From the NCBI GenBank assembly GCA_958295715.1, contig OY282371.1:1659697-1723696 (forward strand): a stretch of 64,000 bases of DNA, in the 5' to 3' direction. Every line of letters starts with the position of its first letter. The first letter of the stretch is position 1. The notes under the pieces were generated by a model. That model worked only from the letters and a program-made list of their open reading frames with translations, did not search any database and was not told the DNA's origin. The translations under genes were made by a program, and so were the position numbers. Below are positions 12,033 through 62,920 of this stretch, in pieces. Source of the DNA: an uncultured Dehalococcoidia bacterium (lineage in GTDB: Bacteria > Chloroflexota > Dehalococcoidia > Lucifugimonadales > GCA-2712585).

Positions 12033-12060
12033 CCGCCGAGATGTAGCGACCGTTCGCGCT
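12033..12060 (+). repeat. Left copy of 28-nt direct repeat flanking the defence island
   Basis: CCGCCGAGATGTAGCGACCG followed by TTCGCGCT. The same orientation recurs at 23416-23443 with 26 of 28 bases identical. The two copies lie just outside the lower-GC gene block, so they may be its boundaries (attachment site or target duplication). Confidence 0.7.
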
Positions 12061-12501: not shown

Positions 12502-15500
12502 CTAAGACCTTCCAAGTGATTGGTATGACCACACGGGACGCCGTAGCAAGTTGAACGTATCCAGTGTTTGAGCGCCCCCTTCGTCGCGGCAACTCGTTAA
12601 CGCTTCCGCTAACAATCCCACCGGGTTTGTCCAATCCCATAAGGGATGGACTACCAGCGCCTGCCTGTTGCCTACTTCCAGCCCAGGCAGGTCTCCGAAA
12701 TCACGCGGTGTTGCCTGGAAAGACTTGCAAAACGAATCCCGGAGCTTAGCGGCATACTCGCGCCATCCTTCCAAATCAGGAACAGAGAACGTCCCACCTA
12801 CCCCAAAGTCAAAGCTGCCGACTTGCAGACATCTGATGAATGAGACCCCAAGCCGCCAGTCAAGCAACCCGTGATAAGCCATGTTCCGGTAGTTCCTGAG
12901 ACAGTTGTAACATGACGCATCACAAGCTGCCCGGTGCTCTTGGCCCAAGACTGACCCGATAAAGCTGTCGGACCGGGGATTGGAGCTTGTTGCTGACGCC
13001 AGCAAGCTTTCCCAATTATCACTTATCCAATTAGTGAATCCTGCCCCGTTGGCCAAGTGGTCGCTAATGATAATTTCACCCACCTCTGCCCCGTCTCCTA
13101 ACTTCACTCGCCTCACGTTGCTGATGTCAAGCTCGTCAGGATCAATGTCGAGTTCTTCGGCGGCAATCGCTTTGAGGATGAACGCAGCCGAATAGTAGGC
13201 GGCCTTAATTCCCACTGCTCCCACCGGATCTAGCCAGAGGCCTGGAAGAACTGACTCTGGTCTGATGCGCAACACGTCCGTCGATTTAGGCGCAACAATT
13301 GCAATGGATTCAGGTTCAGCGACTCCTATGAAGTTGAGTTTGTCAGCCTTCTGAAATCGCTGGTCTATCCACTGATTTTCCAACTTTCGACCCTTGCTTC
13401 CGTGTTGTGCCGTGCCAATCGCCCCTTCAAACAGACGCCCTTGCCTGTCGTTCACCCGGTACACTCTGCCCGATTTGGAAAAAGCGATTGCGCTGTTAGT
13501 TCCGGACACTGGCCGGCAATGAGCTGGGTCTGACTCGGCGACAGTGGAGACCCCGGTAGGCAGAAACTCGACATCCTCGGCAGCGTCACTTCCAGGACCA
13601 AGGCTGGCGCGGAAAGCCAACGGAACTGCGAACTGGAATGTGCGGAACGCTGGGTCATTATCCTTTCCACAACGGCACTCGGGACAGTAATCGTCTTCCG
13701 GCTTGCTATCATGCGTAGCAGTGTAGTGACACTGCCCACAGCGAGACATCCATCTCCGAGAGGGCAAAGGATCGTTCTCACTCGGATGCCACCCGTTGTT
13801 CCGGTATAACAGAGGCGCCGTGAACCCGATGGCCCGGTAGATACGCTTATCCTTGGTTCTCTGGGAGCCAGGAGCGAATTCGGTAACGGCCAAGTCAAGA
13901 TCCCGGTCGGTAGTGAGGGCGTTCCTGCCCCGTAAACCTTGATAAAACAGCCGGACACGAGACGGCATCCCGTACATCGGAAGAATCGCGTATTCTGCCA
14001 TCCTTTCTGCCAGGCCATCACTCGTGATTTCGGAATTCGCGCACGCTTCCTCAATTTTGGTGAACAAGTCTTCTCTCGCATAATTTACGAGTTCACCTGC
14101 TGATATACTTCCAGCTAGGCCCGTACACAAGGCAGCTGCGATGTCAGCGACGTCCGTGGCAGACTCGAGCCACTCTCGAACCGCGTCTCTCCGGCTTTGT
14201 TCTCTGGTCCAATTAGACACTAGTCCGAACTCACCGTGACTATCAGGCGGTCGCGGGCTTTCCCGCCAGTGGACCCCCGCGGCTTGGAAAGCCCGGCGCA
14301 GGCATTCCTTTGCCATCAGCCTCTGCGCAATTTCCATGCGTCCGGTGGATAGGAACGGCACTGGCGCAGGGTCGCCCGTGATTCGCGCGGGGTGGTGGTA
14401 GTAAAATTCGTCATGGCTCCGGCCCCGGCAGATGGTGAGCACAGTCGCGAAAGGTTGTCCCCGGCGGCCGGCCCGTCCCGACCGCTGCTGGTAGTTGAAG
14501 CGCATTGGCGGCATATTCCCCTGGACGACACTCTGGAGACTGCCAATGTCAACGCCCACCTCCATCGTTGTGGTGACGCTGAGCATATCTATCGCATCTA
14601 CTTCTCGCACGAGTGGACGGTGAGGATTGTTTTCAAGGTCCACAGTGATGTCGCGGAACAGTCTTTGCCGCTCTGCCTGGTTATCTGTTTGGGCAGTAAG
14701 CTCCTCCACATGAAGGCGTACCGGCTGCCGTCGTTCTGCCGCCTCTTTCGCGTAGTAGTTCTGTGAGTGCAACTCCTCACAGGTTGCGTTTGGATTGCCC
14801 GGCAATGGGTCTTGGCAGAACTGGCTCGTACAAATTCCCGGGTTGTACAAGTGCGGACGACGGCATCCCGTGCAACGCCACACCGGGTCAGAGCCGATTG
14901 CGACACGGACCATCAAGCCCCTAGGATCGATTTTGAAATACGAGTGGCCCCCGGTAACGCATATGGCTTCACGCACCGTTTCAAGCAAAGTGGTTTCACT
15001 GACGCCGTGAAAGCGAGCGCATTTTTTAACAAAATTGCGAATGCCGGCTCGCGCAGAATCCCAGTCTAACCAGTGATGAATGGTATAAGCGTCCTGGCCC
15101 TCCCGTGGGTAGCGATAATAGTCCCCTAGCATCCTAAGAGCGCCGTTGAGAATGCTAACTAAAACACCGCGAGATAATCCGCAACTGCCCGCCAAGCGCA
15201 TGACTGCATTGTCCGGAATGTTCAACATCGCATAACCAAGACCAGATGATTCGAAACCGAAATACAGCCTTGAGAATAGCTCAGAGCTAATTTCGCTAGT
15301 TACCTTGGCGCGCAACTTCTCGCGTCCTATCTTGCCTGATGGTGAAAGGTTAGGGTTCCAGCCAGACCCAGGACTATCAAAATCGAACAGCGTTGTCCAT
15401 TTTCGCTGAGCGCCATCATATTCGAATTCTTGGAACTGGACATCTTGGCCAGCCGGGTTAACGCCCAACTTCTTCAATCTTTGGATTAGCGTCCCAGTTC

Positions 15501-18258
15501 CTCCCCCAGTGTCTTCAAAGAGGAGACGCAGGGGAACAGCGCGACTGGCGCCACGCTCTGCGACTTTGGAGAATTTCGACTTGGCATTTGCAATAGGTTC
15601 TTCCAGAGCTCGACGGGCTGCCTCCGATAGACTGGCAAGCGTTTTCTCGTCGATCTCTTCCATCTTTTCATCTTCTAACAATTTGAGATAGGCAGATGGA
15701 AGATCCGGTTGCGACTTGGCCAGTTCCAAAGCATCAGGTGACGCCGGGCATCCAGTAGCTTGCAGGTCTGCTAGCAAAGCCGGTTCTGCTATCGCGAATT
15801 TCCTTAACTCATCGTACATGGCCTCTCGCACGAGGTCGGAATAGTGTGACCTTTCAATCCCATTCGCGAGTTCTGCCGCGCTTTGCCGGCTATCTGAGAA
15901 AACGACTAGTTTCTTAGCATCTTCAGGCAGGAAATAGAACATTTCCTTGGAGAGTATCTGGGTGATTTTCCCAAAGCCGGTGCGGAATCCGCGCACCGGC
16001 GACTTGCGATACTTGCGGAATTTGTAATCAGCCGCGCACAACGGGCAGGTGGCAGGCAGCGCTCCGCTTTCACTTCCAGACAATGGGTCGACTTCAAATG
16101 CGTAACCCCAGATAGGGCTCTTGTGGTTAAGTTTCACCTGCCCCGTAGTAGGGTCAAGGCTAGCCGCCTTCCACCGAGCTGTCACTGTGCCACCACTGGG
16201 GACTGGCTGTTTCCACCGACATGAGTCAGGGTTCAACTCCGCTGCTCCGGATGGCCAGAATATCGCGAAGTCGTTGTACGTTCTCCTATCAACGAAGCGG
16301 GCAGGTTGCCGGTCTGGTATGCCCTCGATGTCAGCATCAGTGATTAGAAGTTCCCAGCCTTCGCCGTCCTCAAGTTCAAACCTACTGCCACCAAACATAG
16401 TGGTTCCACAGACTTCACAGTAGAGCAGGTCTAGCACCCGGTGTGGTCCGTCCGGGTTATCACACAAAATGGGCGCATTTTGAAACAGTTTGCCTGTGGT
16501 CCTCCCTCCCGCCATCTCAGCAGGGTCGCACCCGCATCCCGGTTGAGTGCAGGCCCAAAGCCCCTCGATATTCTTGAAGAACCAATGTAGTCTGAACGAG
16601 GGCAATCGTCCCGTCGACCCGCACAGCTCCCGTGCAATCAGAAGGCCGCGGGTGGCGGCGTGCGCCACGGTCTCGTCACAGCCGGGGCCAAACAAACGAC
16701 GGCTGAATTCGCTCAGACTGGTCGCCCTGGTTACCCCGCCTTGTGAACAGGCCGCAAGCATACGAGCTCCGACTTGCAAACTTTCCGATTCTAGAACGTC
16801 CTCCAGACTACAGGTGTCCTCGTCCGGGAATTTGCCGGTTGAACGCAGCAATTCTGCCTTTATTGCGTTTGCGTCCGGCTCGGGGTCTGCTGTCTTTGAC
16901 AATTCTGCTATAGCGACAAACGGCTCTATGGGAAGCGTTCTTGATGTGTCAGAGCTTGGAATATCCACTCGGCGGCCTGGAATAATCTGTGAACTCGTCC
17001 ATTCAGAGCCAAAAAACTCGGAAAGGAACCGCAGGCTCTTGGGGTCGTCTGGCTCCAACGACGCGCTGGAACCCATAATTCTCAGTTTTGGACTATCCGG
17101 AGTTAACCCCAGCCGGAGCAGCAACAGCTTCAGAAGGTACGCCACTTCGGTTCCTGCCGTGCCTCTATGGAGATGCAACTCGTCAATGATTAGGTGGAAA
17201 ACGCTACCGTCTTTTTCCAGCCATTGCTTCGTTTTTTCAAAGATGCCCCTATCCGCGTCTCGCATTAGCATGACGCTGAGCATACTAAAGTTAGTGATGA
17301 GGATGTCTGGGGGAGCGTCTTGCATATCCCACCGGCAGCGCATTTCTGCGCCGTCCAAGCTCGGGAAGAAGTGGCGGGCTTCCTTTTTCCCCGTATCGAG
17401 GGCGTGTTTGTGGGCTGCAGCAGCGGCGCCTTCCGCTTCTTTCAAAAGCTTTACCAGCCTGTCAATCCTCGGGCGGTCCGGTTGTTGTACGCCTTTGGTG
17501 TCCGGTGAAAACTCGTGACCAGCCACCGGCGTGTCTCCGTTATAGCGTCCGAAGTAGAACCGGTTTCCATCGCGGTTCTGGTCAAACCAGTCCCGGGCCT
17601 CTGGCGAGTCTAAGGCGAATCGTAAACGACTTAGCTGATCTTCGACCAGAGCATTCATTGGGTATACAATCAAACCTCGAACTGCGGCGTCACGGTTCTC
17701 GTTGCCACGCTGTGGAACTCGTAGGCTTCTCCCAGCTTTTTTCCTCCGAGGCCAGCGCTGGTTTCGCCAGTCCTCGTTACGCCACCAGTCGTCTTGGTAG
17801 TCCAGCTTTGGTCCCGGCGCGCCCCAGCCACTGGATTCCTGAACGAGGTAAGCAAAGAGCGGTAGCAAGAACGCTTCAGTCTTCCCCGAGCCAGTTCCGG
17901 CGGTGACGACAGCGCTTGTGCCAGAAAGCGCCCGTTGCAGCATTTCGACTTGGTGCGCGTAGAGGTCCACGTTGAGGTCAAAGTTCCTGACTAGTCCACA
18001 GGAAGCGAGACCCTGGAAGGCTGCAATTTCTCCAGGGTTGAGTCCCGGCAATTCTGCCGGGGTCAGATCCCAGACTGTTTTTCCCGATGTCTGGTACCGG
18101 GGGATTGGCTCTATCCACGGCTCTTGAGAAATCGCGCCGGGTTGCCTTAGCAAACGCTCACGCTCCGCCTCAAGCCCGGGGTATTGGGTCCCGAATGCAG
18201 TTTTTACATAGTCAATGTAGCTATTCCGGACCTTATCAAAGGCATTTATGAAGTCCAT
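12502..18258 (-). CDS. druE: Giant DEAD/DEAH-box helicase with DUF1998-type C terminus (DruE-like)
   Basis: A 1,918 aa superfamily 2 helicase. Motif I GTGSGKT is at residues 121-127, motif II DELH at 359-362, motif III SSASLEPDD follows, and VVFSDSRQSAAEL, TTTMEVGVDIGSL and QRSGRAGRRGQ form the second RecA domain. Several CxxC pairs (CEVCG, CPLC, CTGC, CGQC, CPEC) suggest zinc ribbons. CDASCYNCLRNY at 1779-1790 is the cysteine signature of DUF1998. The length and fused architecture fit Druantia DruE, whereas DISARM splits these parts into DrmA and DrmB. It is the last gene of the leftward operon, 5 nt after the 326 aa gene. Lower GC than the flanks. Confidence 0.8.
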   Translation of the reverse strand: MDFINAFDKVRNSYIDYVKTAFGTQYPGLEAERERLLRQPGAISQEPWIEPIPRYQTSGKTVWDLTPAELPGLNPGEIAAFQGLASCGLVRNFDLNVDLYAHQVEMLQRALSGTSAVVTAGTGSGKTEAFLLPLFAYLVQESSGWGAPGPKLDYQDDWWRNEDWRNQRWPRRKKAGRSLRVPQRGNENRDAAVRGLIVYPMNALVEDQLSRLRFALDSPEARDWFDQNRDGNRFYFGRYNGDTPVAGHEFSPDTKGVQQPDRPRIDRLVKLLKEAEGAAAAAHKHALDTGKKEARHFFPSLDGAEMRCRWDMQDAPPDILITNFSMLSVMLMRDADRGIFEKTKQWLEKDGSVFHLIIDELHLHRGTAGTEVAYLLKLLLLRLGLTPDSPKLRIMGSSASLEPDDPKSLRFLSEFFGSEWTSSQIIPGRRVDIPSSDTSRTLPIEPFVAIAELSKTADPEPDANAIKAELLRSTGKFPDEDTCSLEDVLESESLQVGARMLAACSQGGVTRATSLSEFSRRLFGPGCDETVAHAATRGLLIARELCGSTGRLPSFRLHWFFKNIEGLWACTQPGCGCDPAEMAGGRTTGKLFQNAPILCDNPDGPHRVLDLLYCEVCGTTMFGGSRFELEDGEGWELLITDADIEGIPDRQPARFVDRRTYNDFAIFWPSGAAELNPDSCRWKQPVPSGGTVTARWKAASLDPTTGQVKLNHKSPIWGYAFEVDPLSGSESGALPATCPLCAADYKFRKYRKSPVRGFRTGFGKITQILSKEMFYFLPEDAKKLVVFSDSRQSAAELANGIERSHYSDLVREAMYDELRKFAIAEPALLADLQATGCPASPDALELAKSQPDLPSAYLKLLEDEKMEEIDEKTLASLSEAARRALEEPIANAKSKFSKVAERGASRAVPLRLLFEDTGGGTGTLIQRLKKLGVNPAGQDVQFQEFEYDGAQRKWTTLFDFDSPGSGWNPNLSPSGKIGREKLRAKVTSEISSELFSRLYFGFESSGLGYAMLNIPDNAVMRLAGSCGLSRGVLVSILNGALRMLGDYYRYPREGQDAYTIHHWLDWDSARAGIRNFVKKCARFHGVSETTLLETVREAICVTGGHSYFKIDPRGLMVRVAIGSDPVWRCTGCRRPHLYNPGICTSQFCQDPLPGNPNATCEELHSQNYYAKEAAERRQPVRLHVEELTAQTDNQAERQRLFRDITVDLENNPHRPLVREVDAIDMLSVTTTMEVGVDIGSLQSVVQGNMPPMRFNYQQRSGRAGRRGQPFATVLTICRGRSHDEFYYHHPARITGDPAPVPFLSTGRMEIAQRLMAKECLRRAFQAAGVHWRESPRPPDSHGEFGLVSNWTREQSRRDAVREWLESATDVADIAAALCTGLAGSISAGELVNYAREDLFTKIEEACANSEITSDGLAERMAEYAILPMYGMPSRVRLFYQGLRGRNALTTDRDLDLAVTEFAPGSQRTKDKRIYRAIGFTAPLLYRNNGWHPSENDPLPSRRWMSRCGQCHYTATHDSKPEDDYCPECRCGKDNDPAFRTFQFAVPLAFRASLGPGSDAAEDVEFLPTGVSTVAESDPAHCRPVSGTNSAIAFSKSGRVYRVNDRQGRLFEGAIGTAQHGSKGRKLENQWIDQRFQKADKLNFIGVAEPESIAIVAPKSTDVLRIRPESVLPGLWLDPVGAVGIKAAYYSAAFILKAIAAEELDIDPDELDISNVRRVKLGDGAEVGEIIISDHLANGAGFTNWISDNWESLLASATSSNPRSDSFIGSVLGQEHRAACDASCYNCLRNYRNMAYHGLLDWRLGVSFIRCLQVGSFDFGVGGTFSVPDLEGWREYAAKLRDSFCKSFQATPRDFGDLPGLEVGNRQALVVHPLWDWTNPVGLLAEALTSCRDEGGAQTLDTFNLLRRPVWSYQSLGRS

Positions 18259-18263
18259 CGTCT

Positions 18264-19244
18264 TTACCTTCTTTCGATGGGTTGTTGCCTGAGCTTAGTC
18301 GCAACCGCATTAAAGACACTGGGCGGCGCTTCATCAAATATGTAGAAGCTTTGCATCCCATAAGATGGCTCTCGTTTTGACAGTGTTGGGGAATGTCCGC
18401 TGCACAGGCCCAAGGCCCTTGCAAACAAAGCAGGCAGAGGAGCTCCATACGGCACGTAAGCGCGCCTGGTGGCCAAGTCATATCTCAAGACCCGGCAAAG
18501 CGAGAAGGCAAGTATAGAGTATCGTCCCCAGTCAAGTTCGACTTCTGCCCACTCATCGTTTCGCCATAGCCGGTAGCGCCATATTGACTTCACCGGATCC
18601 TGGTATCTGCTTAGTCGTACTTGTGAAGATGTCTCCCCGGCTGGCAAGAACCTCAACTTGGTCGTATCAAAATCCTCCCTGCGCCAGTTCAGTTCCGGTT
18701 GCTTTAACCACACCAATTTTCGCAGGTATTCCTGGAGCGATGCAGCCACTCGCGCCAGGGACCGGGCCGGCGGGACATCGATATAGCGGAGATTTACATT
18801 AGCTGCAACAGTGTGGATTAGAGAGGGATTTTCAGCGCGAAGCTCTACACGAGCCGGTAGATAAGGACTAGAGCCATTTTGAAACCCCAAGATAATATCT
18901 GCGCCCGCCGCGGTTGCCGCCCTTTCCAGTCTCTGAATTGTGCCTGGTGACCTTGCTCCGCACAAGACCGCCCTAGCAGGCCCTCTCCCGGGAAGCGCGG
19001 CGAGTAGCGGGGGAGCAACGACGACCTGGATGTCACCTTGGTTGAAATGCAAGTCGATATGACCGAGACAGCTCAATGCGCGGAGGACCTGCCACCGGAC
19101 ATCGGCGGCTGGCTCGCCTGCTTCCCACTGCCTCTCCATGACGTTTCTCTGATGAACTTCCCCAAACAACCGCTTAAAACGAGGCCAAGTCACTTTACGC
19201 TCAGAAGAGAGCGCGAACAGTAGGATGTCGCCATTGTCATACAT
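18264..19244 (-). CDS. Uncharacterised Druantia-associated protein (candidate DruG)
   Basis: A 326 aa protein without a motif I recognise. It is mixed alpha/beta in appearance, with a short hydrophobic VVVAPPLLAALPG stretch but no membrane segment or signal peptide. It overlaps the end of the 692 aa gene by 8 nt and lies 5 nt before the helicase gene, so the three are very probably co-translated. By position, between a larger unknown and druE, it would correspond to DruG in the published type II order (druM, druF, druG, druE). That is a placement by synteny only. Confidence 0.6.
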   Translation of the reverse strand: MYDNGDILLFALSSERKVTWPRFKRLFGEVHQRNVMERQWEAGEPAADVRWQVLRALSCLGHIDLHFNQGDIQVVVAPPLLAALPGRGPARAVLCGARSPGTIQRLERAATAAGADIILGFQNGSSPYLPARVELRAENPSLIHTVAANVNLRYIDVPPARSLARVAASLQEYLRKLVWLKQPELNWRREDFDTTKLRFLPAGETSSQVRLSRYQDPVKSIWRYRLWRNDEWAEVELDWGRYSILAFSLCRVLRYDLATRRAYVPYGAPLPALFARALGLCSGHSPTLSKREPSYGMQSFYIFDEAPPSVFNAVATKLRQQPIERR

Positions 19245-21315
19245 CGCGGGCTACCGCTTGAATCTGGCGCCAGCGCGCGCGTTCGCTTGCATGTACCGGG
19301 GGCAAGACTCGCTTGCGCCAGCGCCAAATAACTTTCTTCCAGTCTTTCATGTTCCGGCGAGTGAGAGAATCCGGCGTGCCAGGCAATGTCGCCCCCAGCA
19401 TCTCACCCACGAACACCGCTTCCCACTTCTTAGGTCCGCGCTTTTTAATCGCCCATGTGGGAGTCCAGTCGTTAGGAAACGGCCCCGCTGGCCAGTCAAC
19501 AATTTGTCCAGGGAGCTGGCCAACCAAAAAGCCTTTCAGCCTGCCTATTTCGTACTCCAAATCCTGGAACACCTCCGCGGCTGACATTACAAATTCGAGG
19601 CTTTGACCGCTTATATATGCTCCGGCTACAGACGTTTTGTCGCTGGCAGGCCCGGCGGTGGCTCCGAAGGAATCTACGAGCGCCTCAGGCTCCCCCGTGG
19701 GTAGGCTAAAGTCGCCTGTTAAGAACAACGACTGTCGCTTCTGTGACTGGCCGGAACGCGCCTCTATAGTAATCCGAGATCCATTTGGAAGGTTGTCCGG
19801 AAGGGTAAAAACATCCCCGGTCGCAGGGGATGATAGCAGCTCCCCATTGCAACACATCTCCGTACCTGGCTTGCCGCCGGTAAGTTGTATCGACGGAGGG
19901 GCAAAGTCGAAAAAGGTATTGCCTTTGCCGGTGCGGATTCCGCCCACCAATCTAAGACGAAGCTCCGAGGGGAAGGATAGTGTAGGAAATTCGTCTCGTA
20001 CTGCCTCGTCGCTAATGGCTTCCTCGACGCTAGCCAGTCGCCATGATTTGGGTATCCCTCGAGCTATGTCTAGGTCCTGGAAATTCCGGCATTGCGTAGT
20101 GGCCCATCGTTGCAGACGTGGCCAAGCGGCTTCCGGATAGCACAGATAGAAATCTTGGCCTTGGGGAAGAGTGGGTGTGTCGACGAGGCCGTGAATACCT
20201 TCCGGCCTACCGCTGGTGAATACTCTGACCGGGTACCCCTTAAGCCTTAACTGGTACTTAGGCGCAATAGAATACATTGTTACGTCATTACGCCAGTCGA
20301 GCAGGGCCGCGTCCAAAATCTTTCCAGACTCTCCAGAAATGGATCTTTTGACGGGCAACGACCACCCATTGACGTCCTCCTTCGCTTGAAGCCCTTCATC
20401 CGGTTTAAGCCCAGTCAGTGTAAGCCCCGCTTCAGGGAACTCTTTTAGCTTGCACCTAATGGATGATTCGACAATTCCCGCAACCCGGTCAATCTCCATG
20501 CAAACTCGTAGTCCGCCGAAAGTTTCTGCCGGTTGACTACGGCTTGGGTCTAATTCTGGTATCGTCCCATCCCATGCCTCCAGTTCGTTGGTAGCAGCGT
20601 CAATCAATGGCCCGTAAAGTTCATCATTAGGGTTCTCCGCGACCTGGATGGTCTTAGGTCTCAGCTGTTGTCCTGGAGTGGCGCTGCGTAATGCCTTAGC
20701 GATTTCACCAGCCGGGTGGCTCGATGAAGGGAATAATCCTGCGTTATAGAAAACGCGCGGTAACGCCTGGCGTTCCGTCTCTACCAATATCGCTTGTGAA
20801 AGCGGGTAGCCAACGTGGATATAGCCACCGATGGAACGTGATTCGAAAATACCTAGTTCATCCCGTTTGTCGACGCGCGCCCAGTTTTCCAAATCATCCC
20901 AGAGTTCCCACATGCTATCAAACCTCGGGACTTGACCTCTCCTGCCCTCGTACCCTAATCGCTTCCACAATCTGGGATAATAGGCGTGAGACGCGAATTC
21001 ACCTTCGGCGCTGCTGGCCAACACAAAAAAGCACAGATACCCTATGTAGGGAGGGAATTCAAGCGTCTTTCTCCTCCAGCGCCGAAACTCCCGGTACGCC
21101 CGTTCACATATGCGTTCTCCGTTAAAGTTGGAGTTTTGGGGATATCCAGCTACTGAGGATTTGAAAGGTGGAGACTCTGGCAAAGTCTGTCTTATCTCAC
21201 TGATGAGGTCTTTATTCACGTACAAGTAAACGTCGCGGTGAGCCATGTCCTTGTTAAAAAACTTGCGAGCGAGCGCGTCATTCCACATCTTGTATTCATT
21301 AACGGTCGTTCTCAT
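19237..21315 (-). CDS. Uncharacterised Druantia-associated protein (candidate DruF)
   Basis: A 692 aa protein with no enzymatic motif I recognise. The N terminus is rich in aromatic and basic residues; the C-terminal third is beta-rich and ends with Trp/Arg-rich KDWKKVIWRWRKR. The open frame extends further upstream, but ATG at 21315 overlaps the glycosylase stop as ATGA, a typical coupling, so that start is preferred. By position it would be DruF of a type II Druantia locus. Function is unknown. Confidence 0.62.
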   Translation of the reverse strand: MRTTVNEYKMWNDALARKFFNKDMAHRDVYLYVNKDLISEIRQTLPESPPFKSSVAGYPQNSNFNGERICERAYREFRRWRRKTLEFPPYIGYLCFFVLASSAEGEFASHAYYPRLWKRLGYEGRRGQVPRFDSMWELWDDLENWARVDKRDELGIFESRSIGGYIHVGYPLSQAILVETERQALPRVFYNAGLFPSSSHPAGEIAKALRSATPGQQLRPKTIQVAENPNDELYGPLIDAATNELEAWDGTIPELDPSRSQPAETFGGLRVCMEIDRVAGIVESSIRCKLKEFPEAGLTLTGLKPDEGLQAKEDVNGWSLPVKRSISGESGKILDAALLDWRNDVTMYSIAPKYQLRLKGYPVRVFTSGRPEGIHGLVDTPTLPQGQDFYLCYPEAAWPRLQRWATTQCRNFQDLDIARGIPKSWRLASVEEAISDEAVRDEFPTLSFPSELRLRLVGGIRTGKGNTFFDFAPPSIQLTGGKPGTEMCCNGELLSSPATGDVFTLPDNLPNGSRITIEARSGQSQKRQSLFLTGDFSLPTGEPEALVDSFGATAGPASDKTSVAGAYISGQSLEFVMSAAEVFQDLEYEIGRLKGFLVGQLPGQIVDWPAGPFPNDWTPTWAIKKRGPKKWEAVFVGEMLGATLPGTPDSLTRRNMKDWKKVIWRWRKRVLPPVHASERARWRQIQAVARDV

Positions 21316-22025
21316 GATAAACGCCGGTCTCCATCCCTGGTTGCCCAATGCCGGACATAAGCGCACTCCCCAGCCAACGGGCATTCGTCGCACCTGGGAG
21401 TGCGTGGCTTGCAGATAAGAGCTGTGAAGTCAAGCATTCCATAGTTATGCTCTCTGAAACAATCCAACGGCAACAATGACCATGCAATACTCCAGATTGA
21501 CTTAGCACGCCGGATATCAGTGGGAGCCTTGATGCCTGCTAGCCTTGACACAACACGCACTACGCTAAGGTCCACTACCGGTACACGCAGTCCGAAAGCA
21601 AAGCAGGCAACTGCATGGGCAGTGTATATCCCAACGAATGGAAATTTAATCAAGTCCTCAGGTCGTGATGGAAGACCACCAGCTCCGGTTATCGATGAAG
21701 CAAGGTCGATGAGCGCCTTAGTCCTCTGGTTCCCAAACCCTAAAACAGCAATCATGTCAAAGAGTTCGTCTGCATTGGCGGCAGCTAGCTCGTCTGCATC
21801 GCGGTACCGGCTCACTAGAGACGGCCATACTTTGGCCACCTTGCCGGCCTGCGTCTGCTTGAGCAATATCTCCGCTACTAGGATCCCGAATGGGCTGACA
21901 TTTTCGTCTCGCCAAGGGAATGGACGCCCGTGTGAGGTGTATAACTGGACGAAGAAGTCGTCTGTTATATCCAACCCCGGTGGCTTGCGAATCGGCGCCC
22001 TCTTCTGTTTGGTCATGCGGCTCAC
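21312..22025 (-). CDS. HhH-GPD DNA glycosylase, probable G/T mismatch (MIG-type) thymine glycosylase
   Basis: A 237 aa EndoIII/MutY superfamily protein. The helix-hairpin-helix segment is FPFVGIYTAHAVACFAFG and the catalytic Asp is D152 in VPVVDLSVVR. The 4Fe-4S cluster cysteines C205, C212, C215 and C221 have the exact C-x6-C-x2-C-x5-C spacing. The EndoIII catalytic Lys position is Tyr134 (MutY has Ser there). Tyr is the residue I recall in the archaeal plasmid thymine glycosylase Mig.MthI, which repairs T:G mismatches from deaminated 5-methylcytosine beside its methylase. Here it lies 27 nt after a cytosine-5 methylase, which fits that role. GTG at 22025 or ATG at 22016. Confidence 0.82.
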   Translation of the reverse strand: MSRMTKQKRAPIRKPPGLDITDDFFVQLYTSHGRPFPWRDENVSPFGILVAEILLKQTQAGKVAKVWPSLVSRYRDADELAAANADELFDMIAVLGFGNQRTKALIDLASSITGAGGLPSRPEDLIKFPFVGIYTAHAVACFAFGLRVPVVDLSVVRVVSRLAGIKAPTDIRRAKSIWSIAWSLLPLDCFREHNYGMLDFTALICKPRTPRCDECPLAGECAYVRHWATRDGDRRLS

Positions 22026-22052
22026 CGTGAAATCGTCTCGCTCACGACTATG

Positions 22053-23120
22053 CTACGTATCCGAACAACCATATCCTAAGGCCTCTGCTATAGCGCTTGC
22101 GACCGCCTCAGCAAGCGGCGGTGGCACGGCGTCAGAAATCAACCGGACTTGCTCTGTGAATGTGCCCTCCAGTTGGTATGAATGCGTGAAGCCTTGGAGC
22201 AACATGGCTTCGTAAATAGACAGACGCCGGTGACAGTCAGGATGAACGTGTACTTCATTATGCCCGTAAGCGACAGTGTAGCTTGGGGCATCCCATGATA
22301 GCACCTTGAAACTCAAACCTTTGCTGTTGCCTACCGATAGGCTGCCGTCAGTAAACTTCGGAGACCGGGGAACCATCGAGAGGTGGTTGGGATGATGCGG
22401 AATGTTTCTGCGCTCAAGCCCTCTCGCACAAAACGCTGGTTCCGGAAGACCCATGATAGCTTTCTCTATAGGAGGGGGCGGTTGGCAATCTCCTTCAACC
22501 AGTAGAAGCTTAGTATCGGGATGGCGGTCTCTGTTAACTCCAACCGCAATAAGTCTCCTTCGATGTTGTGGAACCCCGAACGTCCCAGCGTCCAATATAT
22601 CGCTCATCACTTCGAACCCGGATTCCCCGACTAATCTCTTGAACTCGTTGAAAACCGGCTTGTGTTTGTTGTGAATGATACCGGGCACATTTTCGATTAC
22701 GAAGAAATCAATGGCATAACGCGTGGCGAACGCATCAATGATTCCTGCGTAATTTTCGAGCAATTTGCGTCTAGGGTCCCTCTCTGATTGATGGACGTTA
22801 GACGAAGAAAAAGCTTGGCATGGGGGTCCTCCGATTATCCCAACCGGTTCCAGTCCGCCGGCATTTTCTTCCCATAAGTCTAGGATGGTCGCCGGGTCTA
22901 CTGTAGACAGGTCAACCGGTATGACTTTGGCGTTAGGGTGATTGCGCTTATAAGTTGCTATGGCGGCGCGGTTAATATCGAGCGCTAGGACTGGGTGGAA
23001 TCCCGCCCTTTTGAAGCCATAGTCAAGGCCTCCCGCACCGGCGAACAGGCTCAATACAGGCCAGGCGTCGTCCGGTCTGGGAGATTCAGCAGGCTGTATT
23101 GGCCATATGGGATTGCCCAA
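22053..23120 (-). CDS. druM: DNA (cytosine-5) methyltransferase (DruM-like)
   Basis: A 355 aa C5 methyltransferase. AdoMet motif I FAGAGG is at residues 26-31, catalytic motif IV GGPPCQ (nucleophile C101) at 97-102, motif VI ENV at 143-145, motif VIII QHRRR at 185-189, and motif X near the C terminus. The start is a TTG at 23120, five bases after AAGGAG. It is the first gene of a five-gene leftward operon. In Druantia type II and class 2 DISARM such an enzyme would mark host DNA as self. The recognition sequence cannot be predicted from the target-recognition region. Confidence 0.93.
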   Translation of the reverse strand: MGNPIWPIQPAESPRPDDAWPVLSLFAGAGGLDYGFKRAGFHPVLALDINRAAIATYKRNHPNAKVIPVDLSTVDPATILDLWEENAGGLEPVGIIGGPPCQAFSSSNVHQSERDPRRKLLENYAGIIDAFATRYAIDFFVIENVPGIIHNKHKPVFNEFKRLVGESGFEVMSDILDAGTFGVPQHRRRLIAVGVNRDRHPDTKLLLVEGDCQPPPPIEKAIMGLPEPAFCARGLERRNIPHHPNHLSMVPRSPKFTDGSLSVGNSKGLSFKVLSWDAPSYTVAYGHNEVHVHPDCHRRLSIYEAMLLQGFTHSYQLEGTFTEQVRLISDAVPPPLAEAVASAIAEALGYGCSDT

Positions 23121-23415
23121 AGGTTCTCCTTACGTTATCTAGACGCTGGCTATGGGCATGGCGCAGGTTTGATTTTTAGGTAGGCAGCTTGGCGCTTCCA
23201 GCGCAAGTTGTCAACGCCTGGTAGTGGGTATCGTGCACAGCCTCCTGATTGAGTTGGTTTGCCAGTTCCAACGCTCTGCCATGCAGATCCGGTCTTGTGC
23301 AATACAACTCCTAAAGGACGTCAGGGCTGCATGAGGTTGGCCACAACCTCCACCGTCCCTGTTCCATGCTGAGCACCCACTCGAACACGGCTTCGTTGGC
23401 GGCATCCGCTGCGCC
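23121..23415. other. Intergenic region upstream of the methyltransferase
   Basis: About 300 nt with no supported gene. It should hold the operon promoter. A TTGACA occurs on the minus strand (23211-23216), but no matching -10 box is found at 16-18 nt. Intermediate GC content suggests this is still part of the inserted segment. Confidence 0.45.
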
Positions 23416-23443
23416 CCGCCGGGATGTAGCGTCCGTTCGCGCT
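23416..23443 (+). repeat. Right copy of 28-nt direct repeat flanking the defence island
   Basis: Same orientation as 12033-12060, with two differences (A/G at position 7 and A/T at position 16). It lies between the island and the next cellular gene, about 11.4 kb from its partner. Confidence 0.7.
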
Positions 23444-41885: not shown

Positions 41886-42539
41886 CTACTTAGATGACTT
41901 TCTAAACGCCTTGACCCGCTCCGGAAGCGTGAAGGCATAGGTGAGAAACATCTCTGTGAAATTTCTCAACTGTGTGGCGCTGTCGTTATCATATCTTTGC
42001 TCCTCATGAGCCGCACGATTGCCACCGATCCGGATTGCGTCTGCCCATTCCTGCATAGCTTCCGTAATTTTGCGCGTTTCACCCAATATACGGATCCGCT
42101 CAAACAAGGTTTTTCCCTTGGCCTCATCCTTCATTATCTCGTCCGTAGCTCTTTCTAGAGCGCGCCGGAACATTATGCCTGCGCTATTGTAATTCCCATG
42201 TTTTAGGCCATCTGCCCCTTCCCTAAACTCTTCATCTACTCTCGGAGGCAAGAATTCAGGCACATTTAACCCTTCTGGCTTGGGGTGCATTTCACCTATA
42301 CTAAATCCCTCTTTCCTTGGGTCGCCAGCACAATCACTCGGCTTGTGGCCATTGTCCTGAGCAACCAGTTTAACGACCACTCCTTCTCTGCAACTGCGAC
42401 AGGTGAAGAATGTGTTCCAGCTTATGAACAACTTTCCCTCATCAATGAACTCAAACCTTTCATTCACAGACTCCCCATTAAAGTCAAAGGTCATGCGCTG
42501 AGACTTGCAGTGAGGGCAATCTAAGGTTATTACAACCAT
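41886..42539 (-). CDS. DUF4145-type protein with N-terminal zinc ribbon
   Basis: About 217 aa. The N terminus has two CxxC pairs (CPHC and CRSC) forming a likely zinc ribbon. The C-terminal half has the DUF4145 pattern: HGNYNSAGIMFRRALERA, then IRIGGNRAAHE. ATG at 42539 is preferred because MVVITLDCPHC matches typical starts; an in-frame start lies 12 nt upstream. Base composition is visibly more AT-rich than the neighbours, suggesting recent acquisition. DUF4145 proteins occur beside restriction and other defence genes, but this one has no such partner here. Confidence 0.78.
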   Translation of the reverse strand: MVVITLDCPHCKSQRMTFDFNGESVNERFEFIDEGKLFISWNTFFTCRSCREGVVVKLVAQDNGHKPSDCAGDPRKEGFSIGEMHPKPEGLNVPEFLPPRVDEEFREGADGLKHGNYNSAGIMFRRALERATDEIMKDEAKGKTLFERIRILGETRKITEAMQEWADAIRIGGNRAAHEEQRYDNDSATQLRNFTEMFLTYAFTLPERVKAFRKSSK

Positions 42540-42630
42540 GGCTAACCTCAATCAAAGTGGAAGAAGACTACAACTTGCGGTATAGTACGCACTGTATGAA
42601 CACGATTATATACTAAAAAAGGAACAACCG

Positions 42631-60252: not shown

Positions 60253-60957
60253 CTAAAAGTCAATCAGCAAAGACAACTGCCTGGATTCCCACTCCTCAAT
60301 AAGTCGGAATTGGGCGTCTCGTTCTTCCTCAGATACTCTCCTCGCGCCCTTTTCCGTGACAACCCAAGCATGGAACGGTCCACTTACGCCATACATCTCT
60401 ACGCTCACGCACGTTCGCAATATCCTTAGAGCCACCCAAAGGGCCTTCCTTTCGTCTAGCGTTGCCAGCTTACGTTCACCCAGGGTTCTCCAAATGGAAT
60501 ATGCGGTTTTAGCGCCACTGCCCACGGCGTGAAACCAGTCGTGTGTATCGGTGTCCCCGTTTAGTTCATACTCAATTATGTGAGGAGCGCCTTCGCTCCA
60601 ACACGCGACAAGTCCCAGTAGGCCAATTTCCCAAATGCTGTTTGATAAGACTTCTCTATTGCTCCTCTTAATCTGATCATAAACAGGCTGAAGGCAGTCA
60701 TCCATGCTATTACGTAGGCGGGCAATCTTCGCCACTTGCGTGGCGTGATTAAATCTGGAACGCAGAGCCTCTCGAGCTACTTTGGCTCTTCCGAGACTGC
60801 CGCTAAAACCCACAACCAGCGGCAGATTGTTGATGGGTTCTAATTTCTCAACCCGCCAGCGAACCAAGCTTGTGGTATCTGAGACTTGAGAGTCCGCGGC
60901 AATAACGACGCCCGTAGCAAACTTGAGGGCTATGATTACAGTCTCAGATTGGGCCAT
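60253..60957 (-). CDS. Proteasome-beta/HslV-like Ntn-hydrolase
   Basis: A 234 aa protein with a five-residue leader before TVIIALKFATGVVIAADS. Counting from Thr6 as Thr1, Asp falls at 17 (D22) and Lys at 33 (K38), the exact catalytic positions of proteasome beta subunits, followed by VVGFSGSLGRAK in place of the usual Gly-rich strand. It is not a canonical HslV (no HslU nearby, sequence and length differ) nor an actinobacterial PrcB (no PrcA). The downstream half is unlike known subunits. It forms a two-gene unit with the gene 5 nt upstream. It is AT-richer than the flanks, suggesting transfer. Confidence 0.75.
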   Translation of the reverse strand: MAQSETVIIALKFATGVVIAADSQVSDTTSLVRWRVEKLEPINNLPLVVGFSGSLGRAKVAREALRSRFNHATQVAKIARLRNSMDDCLQPVYDQIKRSNREVLSNSIWEIGLLGLVACWSEGAPHIIEYELNGDTDTHDWFHAVGSGAKTAYSIWRTLGERKLATLDERKALWVALRILRTCVSVEMYGVSGPFHAWVVTEKGARRVSEEERDAQFRLIEEWESRQLSLLIDF

Positions 60958-60962
60958 TCAGG

Positions 60963-61385
60963 TTAGCCCCTAAAAAAGCTTTTCGTAGCAAACTCAGGGT
61001 ACTCTGCATAAACGTCTCTTAGGAGGTCTCCAAAGGTTCTACTGGTGACATATGCGTACTTATCATCAAGTTCAGCCAGCCGACTTTGAAATTGGGCGTC
61101 GGCGTTATTTCTTAACCCTCTTACCACTTCTTTGCCCTTATCCGTTAAGCGATAAGAGTTCCATCCTATCCCTCTGGGGACAGTTTCTATGAGACCCTCA
61201 GACTTTATAGAGCCAAGATCGTCGTATATTTCAAAACTGCAAGGCCCCCAACTGTACGGCACAAACTCATACAACTCCTGGCCCGGGGCTTCCGACTCCT
61301 TGGCGAACTTGAAGAGCAGTTTCTGAAGTTGTATGGGTTCTATACCTTCGCCGATAGAGAGCAAGAGCCAGCGATCTTTCTCCAT
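60963..61385 (-). CDS. Winged-helix-like protein (YwgA/Panacea-like)
   Basis: About 140 aa. The pattern PIQLQKLLFKFAKE, FVPYSWGPCSFEIYDDLGSI, SYRLTDKGKEVV and DVYAEYPEFATKSFF resembles YwgA-type and Panacea (DUF4065) proteins, which have a winged-helix-like core. Panacea proteins occur as antitoxins in several toxin-antitoxin families. ATG at 61385 with GGAGGGGG is chosen over an upstream TTG. It is the first gene of the pair with the Ntn-hydrolase. Confidence 0.6.
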   Translation of the reverse strand: MEKDRWLLLSIGEGIEPIQLQKLLFKFAKESEAPGQELYEFVPYSWGPCSFEIYDDLGSIKSEGLIETVPRGIGWNSYRLTDKGKEVVRGLRNNADAQFQSRLAELDDKYAYVTSRTFGDLLRDVYAEYPEFATKSFFRG

Positions 61386-61519
61386 ATCCCCCTCCAATCT
61401 CCTGATTCATCCGGTCAGTTTTGAGAAAAGCGGCAACTATAAATTTATTTTCACACACGCATAGGATTTAAGCAAAAAGCCATCCCAACCCCCTGGTTCA
61501 ATTTTCATGCTACCCCCCG

Positions 61520-62920
61520 TCAGGCCAGGGCGGGGACGGCCTCCCGCGCCCGGCCACGGGCCACCCTGGGCAGGTACTTGCCGGCCTCCACCAGCAAGGC
61601 CAGGCTGCTCAAGAAGTCGTCGTGGCCCCGCGACGCCTCCACGTAGAAGTTCATCGTGCGGTTGGCCCGGTGCTGGACCTTGGCCGCCGTCACCTGCCCC
61701 CAGAACTCGGCCCACTCCGGCGAGCCGTCCCTGGCGTACACCTTCAACCGCCCCGAGTTCACCGCCGCCAGCAGGTCGTAACCCAGCCGCGACTTGCTCT
61801 GAGCGGTGAAGCGGATGGACGTTACGGAGCCCGCGCCCAAGGCCTTGGACAGGAAGCTAGCCGCTCCCTCGCCCATGCCCGTGGCGTCCACCGCCACGCG
61901 TCGGCACCGCCACACGTTCTTGAGCAGGTCTATCAGCCGGGGGTAAAGCTGGTGATGGGGGACGCCCCGCCACGAGTAGTGCTCCACCACCCGGATGGCC
62001 GGGTCCCGCTGGACCGGGCTGCACCCGGAGAAGTCCAACTCCCCAATGGTCAGGGACGTCGAGTCCTGCCGCCGGCCGGGGCCGCCCTCCGGGTTCCCGT
62101 CGTCGGGCAGTCCCCCGGCGATGTCCAGACCCGCGGCGTAGATGCCCCCCGGCGACGGGGCGCGCTGCCGGAGGTGACGCCCTTGAAGCTGGCTCCGCTG
62201 CCCCGCCGAGAACAGGCCCCCTCGCCCCGACAGAGGCAGCAGCAGATACTGGGTGCGGAACAGGGGATGGTCCTCGCCCAGCCGCTCCCTCTCGGCCTCC
62301 ACGTACTCGCGGTAGGGCGGGCTGTGCTGGGCCACCTGGTCCCACGGAACGGAGAAGCCCCGCTTAACGCCGTCCCGCCGTTCCAGTTCCAGGTTGGCGT
62401 CCCGCGCCTCATCCAAAAGCGTGTGCCCGTCCCACGGGGTCCCGTACAGTACCGTGGTGACGTTGGTGGAGGCCCCCATGGGGCGGAACTCCTTGTAATA
62501 CTTCTGGGGTTGAATGGACTGGGCCTCGTCCATCTCCATGAGCAGGTGGGCCGTGTTGCCCACCACGTTGGCCTGCGGCTCCGCGCTCAGGAAGATCTGG
62601 CGCGCCCTGCCGAGGACCATCACGTGGCCGGCCTCCATGCGCCAGAAGCCGGAGTACCCGGCGTCGTCCAGGCGCGCTTTCAGGCGGTCGACGCTTATGA
62701 GGGCCTGAGGCATGAAGGTGGGCGCGGCCTTTATCAGGTTTCCACCCCGCGCGATGGACATGGTGAGCAGAAGGGTGGCGATTTGGGCGGAAAGCTCGTT
62801 CTTCCCGCCCTGACGCGCTATCTCAACGGTGAAGGTCTCACCCTTGCGATGGACGACGCTATCCATAATCGCCCTTCCAATCTCCAACTGGTACGGCCTC
62901 AGGGGCTGCAAACGTCCCAT
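61520..62920 (-). CDS. Phage terminase large subunit
   Basis: A 466 aa DNA-packaging motor. Walker A-like VEIARQGGKNE is near residues 33-42, Walker B HLLMEMDEAQ follows, and GTPWDG is a coupling motif. The RNase H-like nuclease shows AGLDIAG, VAVDATGMGEG and GHDDFLSSLAL, so all three acidic positions are present and the gene looks intact. ATG at 62920 has an AGGAGG site upstream. The packaging operon continues to the right. Confidence 0.9.
   Translation of the reverse strand: MGRLQPLRPYQLEIGRAIMDSVVHRKGETFTVEIARQGGKNELSAQIATLLLTMSIARGGNLIKAAPTFMPQALISVDRLKARLDDAGYSGFWRMEAGHVMVLGRARQIFLSAEPQANVVGNTAHLLMEMDEAQSIQPQKYYKEFRPMGASTNVTTVLYGTPWDGHTLLDEARDANLELERRDGVKRGFSVPWDQVAQHSPPYREYVEAERERLGEDHPLFRTQYLLLPLSGRGGLFSAGQRSQLQGRHLRQRAPSPGGIYAAGLDIAGGLPDDGNPEGGPGRRQDSTSLTIGELDFSGCSPVQRDPAIRVVEHYSWRGVPHHQLYPRLIDLLKNVWRCRRVAVDATGMGEGAASFLSKALGAGSVTSIRFTAQSKSRLGYDLLAAVNSGRLKVYARDGSPEWAEFWGQVTAAKVQHRANRTMNFYVEASRGHDDFLSSLALLVEAGKYLPRVARGRAREAVPALA

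Follow-up and report, generated by a model that had tools for sequence, protein, structure and literature searches.

A Druantia type IV operon led by a cytosine methylase and a probable T:G-mismatch thymine glycosylase in an uncultured Dehalococcoidia bacterium

Examination of a 64,000-nucleotide stretch of the genome of an uncultured Dehalococcoidia bacterium (hereafter the window) reveals an island in which five open reading frames, verified by an ORF check of the window, constitute a single tight minus-strand operon (12502-23120). The island comprises the following features:

12033..12060, plus strand: left copy of a 28-nt direct repeat that brackets the island
12502..18258, minus strand: druE, SF2 helicase of 1,918 aa (assigned by PADLOC, Pfam and motifs)
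18264..19244, minus strand: druL, 326 aa (assigned by PADLOC DruL4)
19237..21315, minus strand: druF, 692 aa, ATG start (assigned by PADLOC DruF4)
21312..22025, minus strand: mig-like gene for a predicted HhH-GPD T:G mismatch thymine glycosylase of 237 aa, GTG start (assigned by 1kea, Mig.Mth of pFV1 and the active site)
22053..23120, minus strand: C5-cytosine methylase (DruM2-like), 355 aa, TTG start (assigned by Pfam, PADLOC and motifs)
23416..23443, plus strand: right copy of the 28-nt direct repeat that brackets the island

Read 5' to 3', the operon runs methylase, glycosylase, druF, druL and druE, with junctions of +27, -4 (overlap), -8 (overlap) and +5 nt, and the TTG start of the methylase has a good ribosome-binding site, AAGGAG, five bases upstream (23126-23131). 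The five-gene, single-strand arrangement proposed in the initial annotation is thereby upheld, as is the lower-GC block that it described: GC content is 51-58% within the island versus 62-70% in the immediate flanks. The two copies of the direct repeat are identical at 26 of 28 positions and are the sole copies in the 2.4-Mb genome. Outside them lie a kinase gene (11358) and a gene for an iron-sulfur, heterodisulfide-reductase-like protein (23471), both named by eye, which are about 0.6-0.8 kb apart in one genome of the same genus and one of the same family; in the stretches of those two genomes that were examined, the methylase and DruE were both absent. No integrase was seen inside the island. 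On these comparative grounds the island is a horizontal insertion between the two flanking genes. Two further low-GC spots occur in the window, one encoding a proteasome-like 234-aa ORF, a 144-aa ORF and a terminase-like 466-aa ORF, named by eye (60253-62920), and the other a 221-aa ORF (41886-42551).

The domains first assigned to the methylase, the glycosylase and the helicase were recovered with Pfam as a C5-methylase (DNA_methylase, 3.5e-50), HhH-GPD (2.9e-14) and DEAD (5e-12), respectively. DruE is recognized with an E-value of 0 by PADLOC, whose models DruE2 and DruE4 give 1800 and 1752 bits, respectively, and displays a Walker A motif GTGSGKT (121), DELH (359), QRSGRAGR (1258) and a C4 zinc motif at 1779. 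Its earlier description as a DUF1998 helicase is retained for the helicase part, given the additional Helicase_C match (1e-5), and weakened for the DUF1998 zinc domain, MZB, which scores 0.0012, below the Pfam cut-off. For types I and II, Bell et al. report that DruE ends in a predicted inactivated Vsr-like domain at its C-terminus (PMC12458937). A DISARM or Dpd identity was rejected, the PADLOC matches of DruE to DrmA, DpdJ and DpdF being merely short helicase-domain matches.

The two remaining proteins had been left unnamed, with DruF and DruG as the expected identities. The first expectation held and the second did not: the 692-aa protein belongs to the DruF family, where DruF4 (9.9e-157) is ahead of DruF2 (2.1e-141), and the 326-aa protein matches DruL4 across nearly its full length (1.1e-61), with no match to DruG among the five operon proteins using the PADLOC models. 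In the PADLOC paper, type IV Druantia is defined by DruE and DruF, with DruL replacing DruM and DruG, and it is found in 11 phyla, type II being restricted to Proteobacteria (PMC8565338). The window operon combines DruE, DruF and DruL, and their order is identical to that of type IV; it lacks DruG as type IV does, yet includes a DruM2-like methylase and a T:G glycosylase, whereas published type IV is without DruM. A DruE alignment was used to scan about 85,000 genomes, each of one species, and yielded 34 loci; a C5-methylase lies nearby in 18 of the 35 type IV-like loci that these form with the window. Hence, the no-DruM clause of PADLOC appears to describe the set from which it was first drawn up and not to exclude methylase-bearing loci strictly. 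The gene set in the window amounts to type IV plus a methylase. The initial annotation was correct in recognizing that the locus is of the Druantia family and that its operon includes a C5-methylase and a base-repair glycosylase, but had taken it for a type II system (druM, druF, druG, druE) that gained the repair enzyme and thereby a new component or the rank of a new subtype. The window does share with type II the helicase family, the DruF family and a C5-methylase heading the operon, the methylase matches DruM2 models, and DruE2 scores slightly above DruE4; nevertheless, with DruL in the place expected for DruG, DruF4 as the best match of the 692-aa protein, and an extra glycosylase, we regard this type II reading as very unlikely. 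Judged on the genes it contains, the core belongs to Druantia type IV and not to type II.

Structure prediction with AlphaFold2 gave a confident model for DruL (pLDDT 91), for which Foldseek returned nothing significant from the PDB. The N-terminal ~100 residues of DruL are similar to winged-helix domains with Z ~7, a value that is common by chance and not distinctive. The model of DruF is of moderate confidence (pLDDT 78) and recovered solely low-TM matches to beta-sandwich proteins. DruF and DruL are joined in one protein of ~1,000-1,160 aa in three loci (L015, 6928-9954; L036, 6832-9954; L012, 7752-11237), and the C-terminal part of the long PADLOC DruF2 models matches the window DruL (1.7e-9). 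In light of these fusions and the DruF2 match, DruL looks like a stand-alone form of the C-terminal part of a long DruF. A distinct arrangement is seen in an Acidobacteriaceae locus (L019, 3170-6476), where genes for a coiled-coil protein, an Hsp70-like protein (6.5e-37) and an unassigned 190-aa protein are situated between druF and druL.

The best solved relative of the glycosylase is the G-T mismatch enzyme of Methanothermobacter (1kea), at 128 bits versus 83 for MutY and 67 for Nth, and the annotated mig product of plasmid pFV1 is 33% identical to it over nearly the full length. Tyr134 and Asp152 align with Tyr126 and Asp144, the catalytic residues of Mig, and four cysteines (Cys205, 212, 215 and 221) constitute an iron-sulfur motif. 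Identity as MutY or Nth was rejected on the lower scores and because the genome's own Nth-like protein has a lysine at the first catalytic column (that of Mig Tyr126). By these sequence criteria the glycosylase belongs with the T:G-mismatch thymine glycosylases typified by Mig.Mth (hereafter MIG), an iron-sulfur enzyme (PMC9266487), and would be expected to share their catalytic activity. It also resembles Mig.Mth in adjoining a C5-methylase and differs in its setting, as mig on pFV1 accompanies the restriction-modification genes of MthTI (NgoPII-type), and Druantia is absent there. Given that the gene sits inside a defence operon, and that restriction glycosylases are known as a class (PMC10273834), one could envisage an effector directed against phages, which would remove modified or mismatched bases from their DNA in the manner of a base-excision restriction enzyme. 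This is highly improbable for a member of a T:G mismatch family that is fused to or adjoins a methylase with or without Druantia, and in whose place the repair enzyme Vsr stands elsewhere, as detailed below.

Addition of 12 plasmid loci to the 35 (34 scanned plus the window) gave 47 Druantia-like loci, which are related by descent and several of which are cut by contig ends. Among these, a T:G repair enzyme is present in 19 of the 25 methylase-bearing loci (16 Vsr, 3 MIG) versus none of the 22 that are methylase-free, and no locus has both MIG and Vsr. The pattern is seen in both samples: in the first, 13 of the 18 methylase-bearing loci have a repair enzyme (10 Vsr, 3 MIG) versus 0 of 17 without a methylase, and in the plasmid loci 6 of 7 versus 0 of 5. 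For the 35 loci, Fisher's test gives p = 7e-6, or 0.0016 once near relatives were roughly collapsed by hand; a tree-aware pair test, which is underpowered, is not significant (median p 0.25) and includes zero contradicting pairs. Two of the five methylase-bearing loci of the first sample without a repair enzyme are at contig ends, and in L028 Vsr is encoded 10.6 kb from its methylase. The best reading of this alternation is that MIG does the job usually done in such loci by Vsr, whose proposed role is likewise the repair of T:G arising from deaminated m5C and which is encoded beside or near the C5-methylase in the majority of Druantia-like loci that have one, notwithstanding its unrelated fold and chemistry (it is an endonuclease, not a glycosylase). 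In the window's own genome the other C5-methylase has a Vsr gene ~0.7 kb away (L159, 6803-7225 and 7912-8919; G000:C1, ~161.8-163.9 kb), so that within a single cell one methylase would be served by Vsr and the other by MIG. An unusual C5-methylase was observed in a Druantia-like locus of a Nostoc plasmid (L163, 3800-5950); it spans 716 aa and has a weak DDE-transposase-like N-terminal match (1.5e-5, below the Pfam cut-off). The literature searched, which included few subscription papers, made no connection between Druantia and either MIG or a Vsr gene standing alone.

The connection between MIG and the methylase extends beyond the window. In two DruE loci, from an Acidobacteriaceae genome (L019, 619 aa) and from Moorella (L029, 593 aa), the two are fused into one protein with the methylase part first, matching the gene order of the window. 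The glycosylase is thus no accident confined to this genome. A genome survey of MIG at E 1e-29 was too loose, in that it also caught long MutY-like proteins, and the strongest matches alone were examined. MIG lies next to a C5-methylase in 11 of 12 additional loci: all four plasmid relatives are within 2 kb of one, as are seven of eight others, the eighth, L063, spanning 3.6 kb only. MIG was found in one locus among viral contigs; relatives of the window methylase at E 1e-40 were absent from the plasmids and phages searched. In a phylogenetic tree of the methylases, those of the window, L029, L019 and L144, a locus from the phylum of Moorella, form one clade with that of the Vsr-bearing L013 as sister. 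On the DruE tree, the window protein pairs with that of L013 and the three MIG loci are ungrouped. The clustering of the MIG loci by their methylases, but not by their DruE proteins, ties the glycosylase to the methylase and not to the core; together with the fusions and the linkage, it marks the enzyme as a companion of the methylase and not as a Druantia component. The earlier proposal of a new Druantia component is accordingly borne out as to recurrence and weakened as to affiliation, because the glycosylase tracks the methylase, occurs without Druantia, and is substituted by Vsr in most methylase-bearing loci.

L144 is of particular relevance to the origin of the pair. It encodes a methylase (55% identical to that of the window) and MIG (49%) in the same order, and then, as third gene, a restriction enzyme of the NgoMIV family (4e-101), with no Druantia gene within the 20 kb examined. 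A broken NgoMIV gene (36% identity over 284 residues, with several stops) is also present in Moorella L029, between the methylase-MIG fusion and druE. Searching the window with the L144 NgoMIV protein (tblastn) detected no such remnant, Pfam detected no nuclease domain among the five operon proteins, and the window thus has no endonuclease gene adjoining the methylase of the kind that defines an NgoMIV-type restriction-modification system. The fusions, the plasmid linkage, L144 and Moorella together indicate that methylase and MIG form a portable pair that is also used in restriction-modification loci, and suggest an ordinary restriction-modification system as the source from which it was borrowed. 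The NgoMIV link further raises the possibility that the target of the window methylase, which carries the PPCQ (99) and ENV (143) motifs and is matched by PADLOC DruM2 (3.9e-72), resembles GCCGGC. The target-recognition region aligns without large gaps; however, this target stays a guess, because conservation there drops to 45-46%, from 53-54% in the catalytic part, and the window methylase shares only ~25% identity with other NgoMIV-linked methylases. There is no clear depletion of GCCGGC in the island or its flanks.

We therefore weighed whether the methylase and MIG might be a mere left-over of restriction-modification stranded before a type IV operon, with no role in Druantia and with MIG still repairing m5C deamination. 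L144 is just such a restriction-modification operon, Moorella L029 has the decayed NgoMIV gene between methylase-MIG and druE, the MIG loci fall at separate places in the DruE tree, and many type IV loci have no methylase. On the other hand, the MIG and druF genes of the window share 4 nt on the same strand and no remnant of a restriction gene is present, and a C5-methylase near 25 of 47 loci, a count that covers Druantia-like loci only, is much for an accident; we consider such a left-over possible but rather unlikely. The reading that we favour, with a probability of roughly three in four, is an inserted Druantia type IV system (DruF-DruL-DruE) led by a methylase-MIG cassette in which MIG repairs the deamination of m5C. 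The methylase would place m5C at a short site on host DNA, the deamination of which leaves T opposite G; MIG would excise this T from the T:G pair, and base-excision repair would restore C. Vsr limits C-to-T mutation in this way for Dcm in E. coli. The glycosylase thus probably fixes mutations caused by the methylation that its partner introduces, limiting C-to-T changes at methylated sites, and DruE, DruF and DruL would provide the defence proper, presumably against phages. In Caulobacter, a Vsr-like protein imposes a cost on cells that lose a solitary cytosine methylase (PMC12907096), and by analogy a repair gene may confer a second benefit by stabilizing the methylase.

Methylation may act as a self signal for DruE, DruF and DruL, an idea favoured by the presence in L144 of a restriction enzyme where the window has Druantia genes. 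More speculatively, methylase-bearing Druantia of types II and IV might be modification-sensing restriction systems, in which DruF-DruL-DruE replaced the restriction enzyme behind methylase and MIG, the methylase supplies the self-mark, and T:G repair by Vsr or MIG is the price; we put this forward as a tentative proposal that is less likely to be right than wrong. The many type IV loci that do without a methylase show that the core cannot depend on methylation.

The description of type IV as lacking DruM fails for many of its relatives, and MIG emerges as an enzyme that naturally takes the place of Vsr in defence loci. The comparison of L144 and Moorella leads to a testable hypothesis, namely that the methylase is a self-mark once needed by a restriction enzyme. 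Finally, the fact that the methylase is accompanied by an enzyme for T:G repair implies that such loci would genuinely methylate the genome of their host.
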